This document shows positions 47,616-60,660 of a DNA stretch of 64,000 nucleotides, piece after piece. A model generated the notes under the pieces. It was not told where the DNA came from, searched no databases, and worked only from the letters and a program-made list of their open reading frames with translations. The stretch comes from Nostoc sp. RI_552. GTDB lineage: Bacteria; Cyanobacteriota; Cyanobacteriia; Cyanobacteriales; Nostocaceae. The translations under genes and the position numbers were made by a program. Every line of letters begins with the position of its first letter. The first letter of the stretch is position 1. The DNA lies in contig WGNO01000031.1 in NCBI GenBank assembly GCA_016124525.1, positions 1 to 64,000 on the forward strand. The letters run 5' to 3'.

Positions 47616-48659
47616 TTATTCACCCCAGCGATACCACTGACGAAAATTGGCTCCAGCGCTCACAGCCAAACCAATTTGATGCTGTAATGATAGTTCGTCG
47701 TGACCGCCTTCGTTAGCACCGATGTAATACATCCGGAAACTACCATCATCCATTGGTACCACACAAGGGGTACCCACTGCTCGTGCATCCCAATAACCAG
47801 AACCTTTTTCAGCATGACTAAATATGGGGACATCTGTATCTTTTTGCCAGTGAATACCATCATCAGAAATGGCTAAACCAATAGAGTGGTAACCACTGTT
47901 ATTAACACCTTCATAAAACATTAAGTATTGTTTGTTGATTTTCAAGACATGGCGAGTGCCAATACCTCTCTCATCAAAACTTCCAGATTCCCCCGGACCT
48001 AAAATCTGACCCACTTTTTCCCAATGCAAACCGTCAGTTGATACTGCTAGACCAACTAAAAAACCTTTTTCTGGGTTTAAGGTGTGGTAGTATAATTTCC
48101 AACTTTGACCATCACGCAAGACTTGGGGCCAGGCACAAAACAGGGCATCAAATTCGCCTGCTTGACCGACATCGAGAATTGCCCCTTGGTAAGCACCTTC
48201 TAACCGTACCCAATTTATACCATCACGGGAAATAGCGCAGCCGGGGCGCATCTTTAACCCCTTGGCTGAAAATTTGCCAATATCAACAATTGTGTGGTTA
48301 CCGCCAAAGTACCACATCCAATAAAGATTATCGTCAAAGTTAACATTACTAACACCAACATGGGCTGAATCAAAGCGATGAGCGTCTGGGTGAGGCTCTA
48401 ATACAGATCCCATTGTCAGTGGGCCTTTGAGCCGTTGCCAATTCACACCGTCAGGAGAAATGGCCAAGCCACAGCGACCAGTAGGTAAATTAATTTGCTG
48501 ATCAAAAGAAGCATCCCGACCGTAGTACCACATCTTCCAGGTACCATCAGGACAGTGCATTACCTGTGGTGCAGAAACCCGCTCGGAGTCCCACCAGCCT
48601 TCTGTTCCTGGTGCTAAAATTAGACCGGGTTGATTCATTTGTGTTAATTGATTACTCAT
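47616..48659 (-). CDS. GH43/GH32-like five-bladed beta-propeller protein
   Basis: A 347-residue soluble protein with at least four repeats of the type GLAISxDGxxWxxx (CGLAISPDGVNWQRL, GCAISRDGINWVRL, VGLAVSTDGLHWEKV, IGLAISDDGIHWQKD). Each is preceded by WKMWYYGR-like strands, the hallmark of glycosidase-type five-bladed propellers. Asp in GWWDSERVSAPQVM could match the catalytic base position of clan F/J glycosidases, but no activity can be assigned. The start overlaps the stop of the FAD monooxygenase gene (ATGA). No signal peptide is visible, so cytosolic. Confidence 0.75.
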   Translation of the reverse strand: MSNQLTQMNQPGLILAPGTEGWWDSERVSAPQVMHCPDGTWKMWYYGRDASFDQQINLPTGRCGLAISPDGVNWQRLKGPLTMGSVLEPHPDAHRFDSAHVGVSNVNFDDNLYWMWYFGGNHTIVDIGKFSAKGLKMRPGCAISRDGINWVRLEGAYQGAILDVGQAGEFDALFCAWPQVLRDGQSWKLYYHTLNPEKGFLVGLAVSTDGLHWEKVGQILGPGESGSFDERGIGTRHVLKINKQYLMFYEGVNNSGYHSIGLAISDDGIHWQKDTDVPIFSHAEKGSGYWDARAVGTPCVVPMDDGSFRMYYIGANEGGHDELSLQHQIGLAVSAGANFRQWYRWGE

Positions 48660-49810
48660 GAAGTTAGAAGATAACTATAGAGCCACTGTTCAAACTTAGC
48701 ATCACTCACTTGTGCTTGCCGCATCATTTTTCCTAAATAGATTTCGCTATCAGCTTTATAGGCATCCTTGGCCCCCACTGCATTACGAACCTGTATAATG
48801 TGGGTGCGGGGTTTACGACTATTTTCATAATTAGCTAAGGCTGCGTTAATATCGGCCCCGTTGCGAAGGTATTGGGCAAGTTCCCAAGCATCTTCAAAGG
48901 CTGTATTGGCTCCTTGTCCTAGTAATGGCACCATTGGATGAGCAGCATCTCCTAAGAGTGTGACTCTGCCTTGACTCCAGTTTTTTAGGGGGGGTCTGTG
49001 ACATATGGGGCGCTCCACAATGTCTTGAGGATTTGTTGCTGCCAATATTTCTTGTACTGGTTCTGCCCAACCAGCAAAGTTTTCTTGGATACGAGATTTT
49101 ACATCAGCAGGACTTTGAGCAATAGATCCATGGGGACATAGAGAAGCTGCACTCCAAAATACATATCCACTACCTAGGTCAAAGAAGCCAAATATTTTGC
49201 CATCGGATGCTGTGATAGACATAACTTGATGAGGAAGTAGTTTTTCGTGGCTGTATTTGAGAACAGCTCGCCAAGACATACGACCGGCATAAGTGGGATC
49301 TCCGTCACCAATTAATGTTTGTCTAACTGCGGAGTTTAATCCATCGGCACCAATTAATAAATCTGCCTGCACGGTTTTTCCACCTTCAAAGCATACTTCC
49401 ACCTGTTGCTGATTTTGCTGAAAGCCAATGCACCTATGGTCAAGGTGAATGATATCAGGTGGAAGTTGAGCCGCGAGGATTTCTTGGAGACGTGACCAGC
49501 GAATTTGTAACATTGGTTGTTTGTATTTTTCCAAGAGTGTTACCGATTTCTCCCCAATTAACTCGCCGTTACTTTTATACAGTTTCAGCTTGTGAGTTTC
49601 GCTACCTTCTGCTTTTAATAAGTCAGTGATACCAGGTGTAATTGCCTCTAGACTATGCAAACCGTTGGGCACAAGACTTAAAGCAGCACCCACTGGGCGC
49701 AAAAGACGGGCTTTTTCGTAGACATGGGCATTGATACCTTGTTTACGGAGTGCCTGAGCCACGGATAAACCACCAAGTCCCGCACCAATAATTGCTACTT
49801 TGTTAACCAT
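48656..49810 (-). CDS. FAD-dependent monooxygenase (group A), second of cluster
   Basis: A 384-residue single-component flavin hydroxylase. The dinucleotide motif is GAGLGG (9-14), the DG motif lies in LIGADGLNSAVR, and the GD motif in LLGDAAHPMVPLLGQGAN. The salicylate-hydroxylase/zeaxanthin-epoxidase-like group matches in length and motif order. It probably hydroxylates or epoxidises a small hydrophobic compound with NAD(P)H and O2. It overlaps the propeller gene by 4 bp and follows another monooxygenase gene by 30 bp. Confidence 0.85.
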   Translation of the reverse strand: MVNKVAIIGAGLGGLSVAQALRKQGINAHVYEKARLLRPVGAALSLVPNGLHSLEAITPGITDLLKAEGSETHKLKLYKSNGELIGEKSVTLLEKYKQPMLQIRWSRLQEILAAQLPPDIIHLDHRCIGFQQNQQQVEVCFEGGKTVQADLLIGADGLNSAVRQTLIGDGDPTYAGRMSWRAVLKYSHEKLLPHQVMSITASDGKIFGFFDLGSGYVFWSAASLCPHGSIAQSPADVKSRIQENFAGWAEPVQEILAATNPQDIVERPICHRPPLKNWSQGRVTLLGDAAHPMVPLLGQGANTAFEDAWELAQYLRNGADINAALANYENSRKPRTHIIQVRNAVGAKDAYKADSEIYLGKMMRQAQVSDAKFEQWLYSYLLTS

Positions 49811-49840
49811 GGGTTAAGTATTATTCTGTAATATAGCTAG

Positions 49841-51127
49841 TCATTTATCGTTGGATTTTTTCACTTTGGATATCCAGGGTTGATATAAATTCAAAATTTC
49901 TGAGTAGGGAACTGAGGTTTCAAATATCAGGTCGATTAGTGAAGGTGGAAAAAACTGTGGTAAAAATCGGTGCATAGTTTTGGCAATATGTTCTCTCAAA
50001 ATAAACTCAATAAATAATTTGGTTGATTTGGGAAAAGCATAATCTCCTAATTCCACTAAGGCGTAACCATCTGGTTGACGGCGGGTAGTAAATTGTGGCA
50101 GAGTCTCAGCTAAATTGTCAGCATATTCGTTTAAAATCTGATTAAAAACTGCTACATCTTCCAATGCTGCATTACAACCTTGACCAATGGAAGATGAGAC
50201 TGCATGGGCTGCGTCTCCCATAATTATTACGCTATCATCTAGATGATAATGGTTACAGCGAACGGTTAAAATTTTAGCAGTTGGTCTTTCGAGAAAAGCT
50301 TTGGCTGCTTCTAATGTCATCATCTGACCAATTTCTGGAAAGTTTTGTTGAAAAAATTGCATTACTTCTTGTGCGCTAGACAGATTAACTATTTGATTTT
50401 TTTGATGGGGAAAATTGATTGCACCACTCATTGTCCCATCGGCTTGATGCAGTGCTACCATCAGTGTGCCGTCTTCTAATCTCCAAGTGTGAATATTATC
50501 TGATTTGAGGCAAGAACTTGAGTTTTTGGTATTTTCTAAAAAAATTGATTTGTAATCAGTAGGGTAATACTTTTGCTCGCAGTAAAAATCTTCCGCACCC
50601 AGGAAACCTTCTCTGACGACGGAATTTGCTCCATCTGTGCCAACTAACAAATCATAATTAACAGTGAAATCATCTTTTGCCCCAATATTTTTAAATTTGA
50701 CAATTTTAGCTGCAAAATCTACAGAAGTACATTCAGAATCAAAGTGAATTTTTAGACGACTTTCATCGTACTTTTGCGTTAATTGTTTTAACAGTACAAT
50801 TACTAAATTAGTACGGTCAAGAGTAACCAGGGGTTTTTTCCTGGGTGTGAATCTGGACTTACGATTTTTTTGGTGAAAAAGCGTTCCTGTCATCTCTACA
50901 CTTACTGCTTTGACTGCTGCTTCTAAACCCTCAATTTGTGTCAAAACACTCATTCCCCTTGGGTTTAGAGAGATGGGAAAGGTGCGGGATTTTGAGAAGG
51001 AGACAATGCGAGGATCGCTGCGACGTTCGTAAATGTTGATATTGTATTTGTTATCACGACGTAAAAGATACTCGGCTAGCAGAATTCCGCTGGGTCCAGC
51101 ACCGATAATTGCTACTTTTTTGACCAT
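49841..51127 (-). CDS. FAD-dependent monooxygenase, KMO-like, first of cluster
   Basis: A 428-residue flavin hydroxylase with GAGPSG (9-14), the DG motif in LLVGTDGANSVVR and the GD motif in IIMGDAAHAVSSSIGQGCNAALED. The early IVSFSKSRTFPISLNPRGMSVL resembles kynurenine 3-monooxygenase and plant plastid relatives. The C-terminal helical part (LFIEFILREHIAKTMHRFLPQFFP) is long and amphipathic and could touch membranes. It heads a three-gene unit with the second monooxygenase and the propeller protein. The substrate is unknown. Confidence 0.85.
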   Translation of the reverse strand: MVKKVAIIGAGPSGILLAEYLLRRDNKYNINIYERRSDPRIVSFSKSRTFPISLNPRGMSVLTQIEGLEAAVKAVSVEMTGTLFHQKNRKSRFTPRKKPLVTLDRTNLVIVLLKQLTQKYDESRLKIHFDSECTSVDFAAKIVKFKNIGAKDDFTVNYDLLVGTDGANSVVREGFLGAEDFYCEQKYYPTDYKSIFLENTKNSSSCLKSDNIHTWRLEDGTLMVALHQADGTMSGAINFPHQKNQIVNLSSAQEVMQFFQQNFPEIGQMMTLEAAKAFLERPTAKILTVRCNHYHLDDSVIIMGDAAHAVSSSIGQGCNAALEDVAVFNQILNEYADNLAETLPQFTTRRQPDGYALVELGDYAFPKSTKLFIEFILREHIAKTMHRFLPQFFPPSLIDLIFETSVPYSEILNLYQPWISKVKKSNDK

Positions 51128-51727
51128 GCTTCTAGGTCTTACGCATTGATAGAGGAAGAAAAATACTTAATGGTGGAACTTGAATATTAAATTCCTATAA
51201 AAAAGTTTTTCATGAATCTTGAGGAGGATTTAGTAATAAGTGTAAAATGTCATAGGAAAGTGTCACAAATCTTATGGTTGCTCTGTATTTAATTTAACTA
51301 AATTATTAGTATTCATTACTTGCATTGCAAAAAAAATTGACCATTAAAGCAGTGTAAATGTTTTAACTCCAGGGTTATTAATCCCAATATTTTGATTAAA
51401 GACAATTTCTTGATTTTGAATATTAAACCATAATTTTTATAAAAAAGAGGGATATTTAAAGTTAGTCATAAAATATATATGTATAATATTTCCCTTACTC
51501 ATCTTTGGTAGTTATGTATCAAATAAACAGCCCTTGGTATTGCTGTTCATAAGTGATTTTTTCTCTGGTGATAAATCTGGGTTAATAGTTACGCAACGCT
51601 AACTATCACAATTCAGATTAAATTGCTGTAAAATGCGATATTGTGAAATTTGCATTATCAGTTTATTTTATAAATAGTTATCTTGGTTTATTAAATATAC
51701 AAGCAAAATTTGTTAATGGTAAAGACT
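51128..51727. other. Intergenic region, divergent
   Basis: About 600 bp, very AT-rich, between the monooxygenase cluster and the toxin-antitoxin pair. No ORF, RNA or strong repeat was seen. It should contain both promoters. Confidence 0.4.
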
Positions 51728-51961
51728 ATGTTGAAATCAATTGAAGGAATTTACAAATACGGTAAAGTAGAACTTACAGAATTACCAGAAGATATTTCAG
51801 AAAGTCGTGTGATTGTGACTTTTTTAGATGCTAAAAAAAATCAACGGAAAAAGCAGATGATGCAGTTTGGGATTTTTGCGGGAAAGAAACAATCAACAGC
51901 AGCAGATTTTAAAATTGCTGAATTTTATGGGGATATTGAGGATAGCTTAGACTGGTTATAA
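51728..51961 (+). CDS. Antitoxin, DUF104/AbrB-like
   Basis: A 77-residue protein from MLKSIEGIYKYGKVELTELP; the frame is open six codons upstream. The N-terminal beta-rich half (GIYKYGKVELTELPEDISESRVIVTFLD) resembles DUF104-type antitoxins found with PIN toxins. The C-terminal part (STAADFKIAEFYGDIEDSLDWL) is the likely toxin-binding tail. The toxin gene starts 6 bp later, so the pair is an operon, presumably autoregulated. Confidence 0.75.
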   Translation: MLKSIEGIYKYGKVELTELPEDISESRVIVTFLDAKKNQRKKQMMQFGIFAGKKQSTAADFKIAEFYGDIEDSLDWL

Positions 51962-51967
51962 GTAGTT

Positions 51968-52366
51968 ATGAAATACGTTATAGACACTCATGCTTTAATT
52001 TGGTTTCTGGAAGGTAATTCACGGTTAAGTACAAAAGCTAAAGTTATTTTGTCTCAACCAGATTCTCAGTTAATTATTCCTACAACTACTTTAGCTGAGG
52101 CTGTTTGGATTGTGGAAAGAGGTAGAACATCTATTCCTGATCCTAAAGATATAATTTCTATAGTAGAAGCTGACCCCCGTGTGGTAATTTACCCATTTGA
52201 TCAAGATGTACTGCACATGACTATGAGGTTATCTGGGATTGATGAAATGCACAATAGACAAATTGTAGCAACTGCGCTAATTATAGGAAGTAAAGGTGAA
52301 TATGTGCAGTTATTAACTTGCGAGGAAAATTTAACTGCGTCGGGTTTAGTTGCTACTGTTTGGTAG
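51968..52366 (+). CDS. vapC: PIN-domain toxin (VapC family)
   Basis: A 132-residue PIN nuclease. Asp6 is in VIDTHALIW and Glu44 in TTLAEAVW. The third acidic position, normally Asp in EMHDRxI, is Asn96 here (EMHNRQIVATAL). A further acid (Glu119 or Glu120) lies in LLTCEEN. VapC toxins cleave RNA, often tRNA or 23S rRNA. With an Asn at the third position, metal binding could be weakened. It forms a TA pair with the upstream gene. Confidence 0.85.
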   Translation: MKYVIDTHALIWFLEGNSRLSTKAKVILSQPDSQLIIPTTTLAEAVWIVERGRTSIPDPKDIISIVEADPRVVIYPFDQDVLHMTMRLSGIDEMHNRQIVATALIIGSKGEYVQLLTCEENLTASGLVATVW

Positions 52367-56987: not shown

Positions 56988-58244
56988 ATGACTAAGCCGG
57001 TTGATATTGTGATTCTCTCTAATGGCCCGGGTGAGGTAACAACCTGGGTGCGCCCAGTGGTGAAAGCTTTGCGCCAACAACTGGGGGATGATCGTTGTGT
57101 GGTGAGGATTTCTGTAGTTTTGTCGCCATGTCCAAACGCTAGTGGGAAAGAAGCTGCGATGGCTATTTCCTACCCAGAAGTTGATAGAGTACAAGCATCT
57201 GAGCATTTTTGGCGGTTTTTGTTATGGGGTAAAACATTTGACAATTGGGACTGGCGGGATAGGGGTGTGGTACTTTTCTTAGGTGGAGATCAAGTTTTTT
57301 CTGTAGTCATTGGCAGAAAATTAGGATATCGCACAGTTGTTTATGCAGAATGGGAAGCACGTTGGCATAACTTGATTGATCGTTTTGGGGTGATGCAGGC
57401 AAAAGTTGCTGAAAAAGTTTCGCCAAAATATGCTCACAAATTCACGGTTGTGGGAGATTTGATGGTAGAGGCGCAAAAATTTGAGCAAGTTTTAACTCCT
57501 GAGTCCTCATTGAGGAATGAACTGATTGGTTTGCTTCCTGGCTCGAAAGCGGCAAAATTATCCCAAGGAGTGCCATTATCGTTGGCTATTGCCGAATATA
57601 TTTATGGAAAAAGACCTGAAACCAGATTTGTGATTTTCGTTGCGCCGACATTAGATTTAGCAACTTTAGCGAATTTTGCTGATGGTGAAAAAAACCCTTT
57701 TGTCAAGGTATTTGGCGGTGTTTCAGCTAGTTTAGTGCAATGTGATCATCTGGTTTTGAAAACTGAAAAGGGTTTGTGTTTGGAATTGTGCACAGAAAAT
57801 CCCGCCCATGAATTATTATCTCAATGTAGTATCTGCTTAACCACAGTAGGAGCAAACACAGCTGAACTTGGTGCTTTGGCCGTACCGATGATTGTTTTAA
57901 TACCTACACAACAACTTGATGCTATGCGTTCTTGGGATGGTTTACCGGGATTATTAGCTAATTTACCGGGGGTGGGTTCTAGCTTTGCGAAGGTGATTAA
58001 CTGGTTGGTATTAAGTCAAAAAGGTTTATTAGCATGGCCGAATATCTGGGCTAAAGAGGAGATAGTACCAGAACTAGTAGGCAAACTCCAGCCTGTGGAA
58101 GTGGGAGAAATGGTTTTAGAGTTTTTAGCTCATCCAGAAAAGCTAGATCAGATGAGAAATCAGCTTCGCAGTGTCAGGGGAGAAAGTCTGGCAGCCCAGA
58201 AAATAGCAGGGATTGTCTTGGATGAAATTGCCAATTATACTTAA
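56988..58244 (+). CDS. LpxB-like glycosyltransferase (lipid-A-disaccharide synthase-related)
   Basis: A 418-residue GT-B-fold protein. VDIVILSNGPGEVTTWVRPVVKAL is the N-terminal Rossmann signature, VVGDLMVEA and LIGLLPGSKAAKLSQGVPL match the LpxB core, and LTTVGANTAELGALAVPMIVLIPTQQ matches the nucleotide-sugar site. Cyanobacterial members form a distinct family; classical lipid A is not expected, so substrates are unknown. The start ATG is in a run of CCAATGA/CTAATGA-like heptamers. The SDR-PhyH gene follows after 43 bp. Confidence 0.85.
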   Translation: MTKPVDIVILSNGPGEVTTWVRPVVKALRQQLGDDRCVVRISVVLSPCPNASGKEAAMAISYPEVDRVQASEHFWRFLLWGKTFDNWDWRDRGVVLFLGGDQVFSVVIGRKLGYRTVVYAEWEARWHNLIDRFGVMQAKVAEKVSPKYAHKFTVVGDLMVEAQKFEQVLTPESSLRNELIGLLPGSKAAKLSQGVPLSLAIAEYIYGKRPETRFVIFVAPTLDLATLANFADGEKNPFVKVFGGVSASLVQCDHLVLKTEKGLCLELCTENPAHELLSQCSICLTTVGANTAELGALAVPMIVLIPTQQLDAMRSWDGLPGLLANLPGVGSSFAKVINWLVLSQKGLLAWPNIWAKEEIVPELVGKLQPVEVGEMVLEFLAHPEKLDQMRNQLRSVRGESLAAQKIAGIVLDEIANYT

Positions 58245-58287
58245 TAAGCGAGGAGTATAATTATTCATCAGCAATATTGTTTAATTT

Positions 58288-59895
58288 ATGAATAGCGACC
58301 TAGAGAAAGTATGTATTGTGACTGGCGGTAATTCTGGTGTTGGTTTGATGACTGCCTTGGGTCTGGCTGAAAAGGGATATCATGTATTTATTGGCTGTCG
58401 TTCTATGACTAAGGCTACTAAAGCCTTAAAATATATTCGTGACAATAGTGGAAATAACAAAGTTGAGTTTTTGCCCCTTAATTTAGCTTCTTTAAAATCG
58501 GTTCGTCAATTTGTGGATTTATTTACAGCTAGACAACTTCCCCTACACATCTTAGTGAACAATGCGGGGATTTTCCATCACAGAGGTACAACAGAAGAGG
58601 GATTTGAATTAATTTGGGGGACTAACTATTTAGGACATTTTTTACTTACATATCTATTGTTAGAGAAACTTGAAGTTTCAGCCCCTAGTAGAATTGTGAT
58701 GGTGAGTTCTGACTTGGCATTAGGTCCGCAACATATTCCTTGGGATTTGTTAGTGAAAAAAACACCATTGAATTTTCTAGAGCTTTACTCTGTTTCTAAA
58801 TTATGTTTATTATTATTGACAAGTAAACTTGCAAAACATTTAGCTCATGGCCATGTAACTGTTAACGCAGTTCATCCCGGATTTGTCCAGTCAAATATTA
58901 CAATTGGGCATCGTCTCAGTAAATATTTAGGTTTGGGCATTACTCCAGAGCAGGGGGCAAATAGCAGCTTATTTTGTGCAACTTCTAGGGAACTAGAACA
59001 GGTAAGTGGAAAATTCTTTAATCCTAAATGTCAGGAAATTACCTTACCGAAAATAGTTACAGATGTTAGAACAGTTAACCAACTTTGGGAGAGAAGTTTA
59101 ATTTGGACTGGGTATCAGCAACACCGGGAAAGCGTTGTTAATAATTATGATAATTTTACAGAAATTTCAGGACCTTATAGGCTGAAGTTAGATAGTAAAG
59201 AAATTGCTGATATTACTAAAACTATTTTCGCGGATGTATTACCAAAACCACCCCATAAATTATTGTTTTTACATCTTTTAGGTTTTTTAGTTAAGTTCAA
59301 ATTTGGTTCATTTTTACTCTTACTATTGCAATTAAAAAAACAGCAATTTAATATGGAAAGACATATAGATTCACCAGAGGTGTGGAAATTATGCTGTGAT
59401 GAAAATCTTTTAGTTAAGTTGCAAGAATATTTGGGTCAAGAAATAGTATTATGGCGTTCTGAAATATGGGCTAATTATCCCGCCGAAGAATTAATTCCAT
59501 TTTGGCATCAAGATTCTTATCCTAAGTTACTTGTGGGCGAAGGTAAAACAATTAATATTTATATTGCCCTGACTGAAGTAAATCAGTTTAATGGTTTTGA
59601 GTTCATCCCCACTAATGAGATTACAGATACACTAGCGGTGAAAGTCACAGATCCTTTTAGCGGGAATAATTTTTTTGAAATTAAGGATGAATTGGCAAAA
59701 AAGGCGGTAAAAGTGGTGTTAAAACCTGGTGAATTTATTATGTTTACTGATAATCTTATTCACCGTTCTGTCTGTAATACAAGTGGTCAAACTAGATTAT
59801 CCCTAACTTTAAGGTTAACTCAACCGAGTAAGTATATTAATTCTGGTTATAATCCTAATTTTCAAAGGCCTGTGTTGTTAGTTTGTATGAATTAG
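58288..59895 (+). CDS. SDR oxidoreductase fused to PhyH-type 2-oxoglutarate dioxygenase
   Basis: A 535-residue two-domain protein. Residues 1-280 are a short-chain dehydrogenase of the POR/retinol-dehydrogenase type: TGGNSGVG (12-19), NNAG (91-94), Ser140/141, and Tyr167-x3-Lys171. Residues about 295-535 form a phytanoyl-CoA dioxygenase-like domain with the Fe(II) triad His407-x-Asp409 (FWHQDSYP) and His492 (DNLIHRS), and the 2-oxoglutarate-binding Arg503. Both active sites look intact. A hydrophobic patch (LLFLHLLGFL, FLLLLLQL) near 325-348 may touch membranes. It probably forms an operon with the LpxB-like gene. The substrate is unknown; a long-chain or isoprenoid lipid is a guess. Confidence 0.88.
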   Translation: MNSDLEKVCIVTGGNSGVGLMTALGLAEKGYHVFIGCRSMTKATKALKYIRDNSGNNKVEFLPLNLASLKSVRQFVDLFTARQLPLHILVNNAGIFHHRGTTEEGFELIWGTNYLGHFLLTYLLLEKLEVSAPSRIVMVSSDLALGPQHIPWDLLVKKTPLNFLELYSVSKLCLLLLTSKLAKHLAHGHVTVNAVHPGFVQSNITIGHRLSKYLGLGITPEQGANSSLFCATSRELEQVSGKFFNPKCQEITLPKIVTDVRTVNQLWERSLIWTGYQQHRESVVNNYDNFTEISGPYRLKLDSKEIADITKTIFADVLPKPPHKLLFLHLLGFLVKFKFGSFLLLLLQLKKQQFNMERHIDSPEVWKLCCDENLLVKLQEYLGQEIVLWRSEIWANYPAEELIPFWHQDSYPKLLVGEGKTINIYIALTEVNQFNGFEFIPTNEITDTLAVKVTDPFSGNNFFEIKDELAKKAVKVVLKPGEFIMFTDNLIHRSVCNTSGQTRLSLTLRLTQPSKYINSGYNPNFQRPVLLVCMN

Positions 59896-60276
59896 GGATT
59901 TTTGTTTGTAATGCTAAAATAATCGGTTAAAGTATTACTATACAACGTTATATTATATAGTGTTAAGTATGATTTTTTGAATGTCAGATCAGCTGTTATT
60001 GAGATAATTACAAAAATCCTTAGACCGATTATGAATGGGCCGAAAAGCATTGTAAGATTGGTTGATAATTTTGGTCAGCAAATAGAATTGTTTTTTTGCA
60101 CATTTGTGAAGATAGGGGAATTGAAATTTATGAACAGTTATTAAATTTGTTAAAGTGGAACAAATGTTGTTTGTGCATGAATAAGTAAATCAATGTCAAA
60201 CTCCGTAGCTAAAAGAAGAATTCAACAACAAAGAATTAACAGATGGGTAAATAGCTATGGTGTGGGGTTTATGAAG
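59896..60276. other. Intergenic region between convergent genes
   Basis: About 380 bp, AT-rich. A 31-codon ORF (60194-60289) is present but I could not support it. No RNA gene or clear terminator was recognised. Confidence 0.35.
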
Positions 60277-60660
60277 TTATTCTTCTGATTGTTCGCTTTG
60301 ACGAGCTAGCTCATAAATAGCAGAAATCATAGAAGCCATAATCCCCATGCTAATGCCCCAGCTGCGTCCTAGGCTAATATCTATGAGCCAGTTGGATAAA
60401 GCACCAAATATGAGGAAAGGCACGATACTAAATAGTGAAGCATAAAAAGCATTTTGGGATTCTCTGGCTTGGCGTGTCTTTTCAAATTCTGTTTGGCTGG
60501 TATAAAGAGATCGCTCGGCAAAATTAAACCAGCGATTGAGCAACTCAATAATCTTGTCCCGGAGTGGCGAAAAAGCTAAATATAGGGCCAATGACCACAA
60601 ACTCGCGCCGGCGATCGCTGCCGTGTTTACCTCAAAATGGAAAGGAAAAATTTCAGTCAT
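60277..60660 (-). CDS. Small membrane protein, unknown
   Basis: A 127-residue protein with three hydrophobic helices (VNTAAIAGASLWSLALYLAF, AFYASLFSIVPFLIFGALSNW, GISMGIMASMISAIYELA). A charged helical linker (EFEKTRQARESQNA) separates the first from the others. It ends in a polar QSEQSEE tail. It resembles cyanobacterial-only membrane proteins; no function is recognised. It is monocistronic. Confidence 0.65.
   Translation of the reverse strand: MTEIFPFHFEVNTAAIAGASLWSLALYLAFSPLRDKIIELLNRWFNFAERSLYTSQTEFEKTRQARESQNAFYASLFSIVPFLIFGALSNWLIDISLGRSWGISMGIMASMISAIYELARQSEQSEE

Follow-up and report, generated by a model that had tools for sequence, protein, structure and literature searches.

Introduction

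Several described enzymes bear on the protein reported here. On the oxygenase side are SyrB2, CytC3 and phytanoyl-CoA hydroxylase, whose substrates are acyl or aminoacyl groups bound as thioesters. SyrB2 and CytC3 are halogenases: they have no iron-binding carboxylate, and a small residue takes the place of the Asp. On the dehydrogenase side are two kinds of classical SDR, the RDH/PRK06197-type enzymes and those that resemble protochlorophyllide reductases (POR-like).

Here we analyse a gene of Nostoc sp. RI_552 that joins an SDR to a PhyH-fold Fe(II)/2-oxoglutarate (2OG) oxygenase in a single protein. It lies in a stretch of 64,000 nucleotides of contig WGNO01000031.1, called the window below, just downstream of a glycosyltransferase-like (GT-like) gene. 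A first-pass annotation took the upstream gene to be LpxB-like and joined the two in a functional pair. Is the fusion itself more than an accident of one genome? And does the neighbouring gene say anything about what the fusion does?

Results

Two complete active sites in one protein

The features of the locus are collected in Table 1. The boundaries of the fusion gene, its length of 535 residues and the positions of its motifs are as first annotated: TGGNSGVG begins at residue 12, followed by Tyr167/Lys171 and by His407/Asp409/His492/Arg503. The distance from the upstream ORF, whose stop ends at 58244, was again measured as 43 bp. Pfam assigns residues 7-205 to adh_short (99.3 bits) and residues 358-503 to PhyH (PF05721; 39.8 bits, cut-off 22). 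It is the sole PhyH match of the source genome at E<=0.001, in an assembly that is 89% complete.

Table 1. Features of the fusion locus and its borders; positions are those of the window
Feature	Position	Strand	Basis
GT-like gene, 418 aa, near-universal, judged to lie outside the system	56988..58244	+	
SDR-PhyH fusion gene, 535 aa	58288..59895	+	Pfam cut-offs exceeded by both domains; identity of 52-88% to 24 aligned relatives
SDR half, about residues 5-271, RDH/POR-like classical SDR	58300..59100	+	TGGNSGVG, Arg38, N113-S141-Y167-K171
Hydrophobic double-helix segment between the domains, about residues 320-357	59245..59358	+	Model, hydropathy
PhyH-fold Fe(II)/2OG oxygenase half; H407, D409, H492, R503	59359..59892	+	Pfam, profile, fold, alignment
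Scar of a type IIG (Eco57I-like) restriction-modification gene: start, middle and end pieces	60031..60268	+	tblastn and nucleotide alignment

A structure model of the whole protein is of moderate quality (pLDDT 78.9, pTM 0.59). It renders the stretch between the domains, at low confidence, as two helices. Hydropathy over 19 residues reaches its maximum of 1.75 here, in the windows that start at residues 328 and 329. This segment may possibly be a membrane or lid element, and the substrate of the fusion is possibly hydrophobic. In four divergent relatives the hydropathy of residues 320-352 is close to zero, and we count this weakness of the segment against the explanation favoured below.

The C-terminal half contains a full His-X-Asp...His iron site and the Arg that binds 2OG. 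With a PF05721 score above the cut-off and a matching fold, it belongs to the PhyH Fe(II)/2OG family and shares these features with phytanoyl-CoA hydroxylase. It differs from human PHYH in that the fusion has an SDR in front, and identity in structural alignments is 13%. In a profile search of the PDB the best matches were SyrB2 (E 9.1e-10) and CytC3 (6.2e-9), followed by SnoK (5.3e-5); the stretches RHLD and WR-x-E are common to the oxygenase half and SyrB2/CytC3. The fold agrees: when the half was modelled alone (pLDDT 82.0, pTM 0.80), its matches included SyrB2, ThoJ, SnoN, MysH and human PHYH. DALI-like Z scores nearly tie, at 17.7-19.1, for proline hydroxylase, ThoJ, GriE, SnoN, CytC3 and SyrB2. 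VIA-align likewise puts proline hydroxylase, ThoJ, GriE, SnoN, MysH, CytC3, SyrB2 and PHYH, together with EctD, within about 2 Z units. Because the scores are so nearly tied, structure singles out no substrate class for this half.

Could the oxygenase half be a halogenase of the SyrB2 type? SyrB2 and CytC3 do without the iron-binding carboxylate, whereas Asp409 is present in all 25 aligned copies of the fusion, and we rejected this assignment. Since the residue is kept, the sequence leads us to expect that the half should hydroxylate or otherwise oxidise its substrate, not halogenate it.

In the N-terminal half the N-S-Y-K catalytic set is complete, and Arg38 stands at the end of beta-2, which we take to be the usual mark of NADP(H). 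A classical SDR is marked by TGxxxGxG and by YxxxK with its N and S partners; the half has these motifs, and G13, G19, N113, S141, Y167 and K171 do not vary in 25 of 25 aligned copies, so we place it in that superfamily. By sequence and by fold alike, the closest PDB entries are protochlorophyllide reductases; PDB comparisons also reveal similarity to ketoreductases. Among NCBIfam models the PRK06197-type SDRs come closest (152.4 bits against a cut-off of 268). The protochlorophyllide reductase (LPOR) assignment was rejected, at 95.6 bits against an equivalog cut-off of 331.35. The fusion thus shares with RDH/PRK06197-type and POR-like SDRs the Rossmann motif, NAG, N-S-Y-K and the Arg after beta-2; unlike them, it falls below the LPOR and PRK06197 cut-offs and carries an oxygenase.

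Spread and conservation of the fusion

A survey of relatives confirmed that the fusion recurs across cyanobacteria. Full-length matches at 57% identity or more were found in 20 of 192 family genomes, the window's included; one of these copies (in G178) is interrupted by a stop. Two further family genomes (G084 and G105) hold fragments. Single halves also survive: in G019 the oxygenase half retains its motifs and the contig carries no SDR (L057, 5989-6705), and G302 has the SDR half with a truncated oxygenase (L107, 8781-10157). Non-fusion SDRs among the family matches listed reach at most 48% identity over part of the SDR half, except for one contig-edge fragment at 67%.

In the phylum sample, 13 of 386 genomes have both halves, counting G302 with its truncated oxygenase; five of the 13 also belong to the family sample. 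The remaining matches listed there consist of an SDR alone and do not exceed 43% identity. Searched by itself (E<=1e-5), the oxygenase half returned the same 13 genomes, a decayed remnant of the fusion with many stops (G477) and two genomes with weak paralogues (24-34% identity). A scan of genome_contigs, limited to close relatives, gave three loci whose titles all name cyanobacteria: Chrysosporum bergii at 88%, an Oscillatoriales MAG at 62% and Anabaena sp. FACHB-1237 at 59%. The first and third probably duplicate the copies of G016 and G034. Among the 328 plasmid records that matched, one, a 1.04-Mb Nostoc plasmid, covers at least 80% of the fusion.

We aligned 25 of 30 copies (29 and the window's own). 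G13, G19, R38, N92, N113, S141, Y167, K171, H407, D409, H492 and R503 are invariant in all 25. Outside the alignment stand the copy with the internal stop (L042), the oxygenase half of L057, the truncated L107 and two intact copies (L049 and L053), both of which keep the catalytic residues. The first-pass annotation had described a fusion of an SDR and a 2OG dioxygenase with both active sites intact, and the catalytic residues of both halves are indeed kept in all 27 intact copies examined. Between the window and its congener G016, dN is 0.057 and dS 0.221 (NG86); when the gene is split at residue 275, dN/dS of the SDR half comes to about 0.16 and that of the oxygenase half to about 0.40. Because 25 copies share the architecture and the catalytic residues, two more agree and the codons show constraint, the fusion is not a product of chance.

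The upstream gene

The label 'LpxB-like' fared less well. LpxB is the lipid A disaccharide synthase, and the similarity of the GT-like protein to its family, PF02684, is local and weak, scoring 14.4 bits, or 10.5 bits in the search of the genome, where the cut-off is 22.6. The protein matched no NCBIfam model at E<=0.1, and a profile built from it and nine relatives matched no PDB chain at the same threshold. The source genome has an LpxB of its own (329 bits, C1:29653), on a contig other than the window's. By eye, the neighbours at that locus (L127, 4597-7977, on G000:C1) look like LpxA, FabZ and part of LpxC. These surroundings are much like the cyanobacterial arrangement given in PMC3087551. 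That paper reports that lpxA/C/D/B are present in cyanobacteria and that the LPS is without Kdo, heptose and phosphate. With these genes reported and an LpxB in this genome, the remark that cyanobacteria generally lack classical lipid A holds only in part.

The GT-like gene is far more widespread than the fusion. It was matched in 189 of 192 family genomes and, at E<=1e-20, in 105 of 194 genomes across the phylum, of which 89 share the class of the source genome or a closer rank and 16 belong to other classes. Among the misses listed (20 of 89), every genome without a match belongs to another class.

A variable slot behind the GT-like gene

Why, then, do the two genes adjoin? We fetched the GT-like locus from 14 relatives. 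In five, a same-strand ORF of 1012-1018 aa comes after the GT-like gene; one of these was scanned and proved to encode an Eco57I-type restriction-modification enzyme, and by eye all five begin alike. In five others the slot is empty, so that the window's next conserved gene (127 aa, at 60277) stands directly after the GT-like gene. The remaining four are arranged differently. The order in the congener G016 is GT-like gene, fusion, and the start of a restriction-modification gene (375 residues, 90% identical), the match stopping 137 bases short of the contig end. In the window the restriction-modification gene is reduced to a scar. Against a relative's 1018-aa enzyme, tblastn recovered its pieces at residues 1-21 (E 6e-4), 233-258 (E 1e-8) and 965-1018 (E 0.054), and the nucleotide alignment with G016 reveals an internal deletion. 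From this comparison we infer that the fusion was inserted between the GT-like and restriction-modification genes in an ancestor of the genus.

The two genes adjoin in only two of the 20 family carriers, both of one genus (the window genome and one sampled congener), where the gap is 43 bp in the window and 196 bp in G016. The GT-like gene is absent among the fetched neighbours of the other 18 (stretches of 4.7-19.9 kb, the shortest from G007). Adjacency conserved across carriers, by which we judged a possible operon, was not found, and co-occurrence of the two genes is not conserved in relatives. Most likely the GT-like gene is an unrelated core gene, probably a chance neighbour of the fusion.

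The slot comparison bears on one further idea. The divergent ChlH gene and the POR-like score of the SDR half might together suggest a link to chlorophyll synthesis. ChlH lies inside the fetched stretch at 12 of the 14 GT-like loci, and because relatives with no fusion in the slot also have it close to the GT-like gene, the link is unsupported.

Other neighbourhoods and descent

Clustering covered 467 proteins predicted at 31 loci, namely 29 copies, the window and the remnant in G477. No protein group directly flanks the fusion in two different genera. A scan of ten near neighbours gave families for nine, with no shared theme: an HlyD-type protein, GMP synthase, a phosphonate-binding protein, MurT, a hydrolase, cytochrome b561, a helicase, RuvB and the restriction-modification start, the tenth being without a family. 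In the wider surroundings, ten groups besides the fusion recur in more than one genus, and five members of four groups were scanned. The largest group (nine members, five genera) keeps at least 3.7 kb from the fusion; its two scanned members are a Ser/Thr kinase and a WD40 protein. The others scanned were XisI, TPR and a family-4-type glycosyltransferase. The last group, found in genus g27 and at one g7 locus (two of 18 genera) and separated from the fusion by other genes, slightly favours a sugar context; its family is not that of the window's GT-like gene. With these recurrent groups around it, the fusion may belong to a pathway whose other genes lie farther off than its direct neighbours, a point that we count against the favoured explanation.

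How did the fusion reach so scattered a set of genomes? The fusion of G128 is 91% identical to that of G143 and 61% to the window's; the GT-like gene of G128 is 83% identical to the window's. The fusion tree joins G128 with G143 at support 100/98, and six of its forks are drawn open. The patchy spread and the tree suggest that the fusion has spread horizontally; differential loss of old copies is a possible alternative. Within some genera descent looks vertical, since g27 and g30 carriers share fusion neighbours and those of g61 and g79 have neighbours of like size. We count the single plasmid-borne copy in favour of a mobile, stand-alone gene. A phage origin was rejected: the oxygenase half had no match in phage records at E<=1e-5, and a short-pattern search of viral contigs, which may miss distant relatives, gave none for the fusion.

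Elsewhere in the window, two tandem, mutually similar FAD_binding_3 monooxygenase genes (48659-51127, minus strand) adjoin a gene (47619-48653) whose product matches GH32 at a low score. At 51710-52366 (plus strand), a small ORF with no Pfam match precedes a PIN-domain protein; the two resemble a VapBC-type toxin-antitoxin pair.

Discussion

We consider it probable that a stand-alone gene, itself probably moving horizontally, produces one bifunctional oxidoreductase, and that the GT-like neighbour is unrelated to it. With O2 and 2-oxoglutarate as cosubstrates, the C-terminal half would hydroxylate a C-H bond of a small, probably hydrophobic molecule or oxidise it in another way. The N-terminal half would turn carbonyl into alcohol, or the reverse, on that molecule with the help of NADP(H). 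The likeliest order would be an oxygenation that leaves a carbonyl or hydroxyl group, followed by NADPH-dependent reduction. Such an enzyme would require no partner encoded beside it, and it would have landed next to the GT-like core gene in the ancestor of the source genus. Nor does such an enzyme have to couple its two steps strictly, because G019 and G302 keep one half each. More tentatively, the fusion may represent an undescribed class of self-sufficient, bifunctional tailoring enzymes. One chain would then unite a SyrB2-like iron oxygenase with an NADPH-dependent SDR for successive steps on one molecule, and this accessory pathway of a single gene would have spread horizontally among cyanobacteria.

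Might the substrate instead be a thioester? The fusion could act on an acyl or aminoacyl group bound to a carrier protein or CoA, with the oxygenase hydroxylating it and the SDR as a ketoreductase-like partner. The closest sequence relatives of the oxygenase half, SyrB2 and CytC3, with which it shares RHLD and WR-x-E, point this way, as does the ketoreductase resemblance of the SDR half. Set against this, the ten neighbour proteins scanned include no carrier-protein, NRPS/PKS or acyl-CoA gene, and enzymes of free substrates (proline hydroxylase, GriE, SnoN) score equally in structure. We regard a thioester substrate as rather unlikely. Less probable again is that only one half is still functional, with the other surviving as a structural or regulatory remnant: survivors with a single half do exist, but both active sites are complete in every intact copy examined, and against the congener dN/dS is about 0.16 and 0.40 in the SDR and oxygenase halves. 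A functional pair of GT-like gene and fusion, building a modified lipid or isoprenoid glycoconjugate, is highly improbable, for the common strand, the short gap and the order retained in one congener are outweighed by the unequal counts (189 against 20 of 192 genomes), the 18 carriers whose fetched neighbours do not include the GT-like gene, the longer gap in the congener and the position of the fusion between the GT-like and restriction-modification genes.

What remains of the undescribed pathway that the first-pass annotation saw here? Its route to a lipid or isoprenoid glycoconjugate through the glycosyltransferase falls away. The conserved fusion of an SDR and a 2OG oxygenase stands, and it is a new combination of known kinds of enzyme. 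No published description of an SDR-PhyH fusion appeared among the papers listed, judged by title and the start of the abstract, in a collection with few subscription papers.

For annotators, adjacency to the GT-like gene is no basis for predicting the substrate of the fusion. If our reading is true, the SyrB2/CytC3 halogenases would gain a close relative that bears the Asp and presumably hydroxylates. Should the two halves act in sequence, a single transferable gene would supply a complete two-step oxidation and reduction without a gene cluster, and genome mining that looks for clusters would miss a pathway of this kind, carried by a single fused gene.
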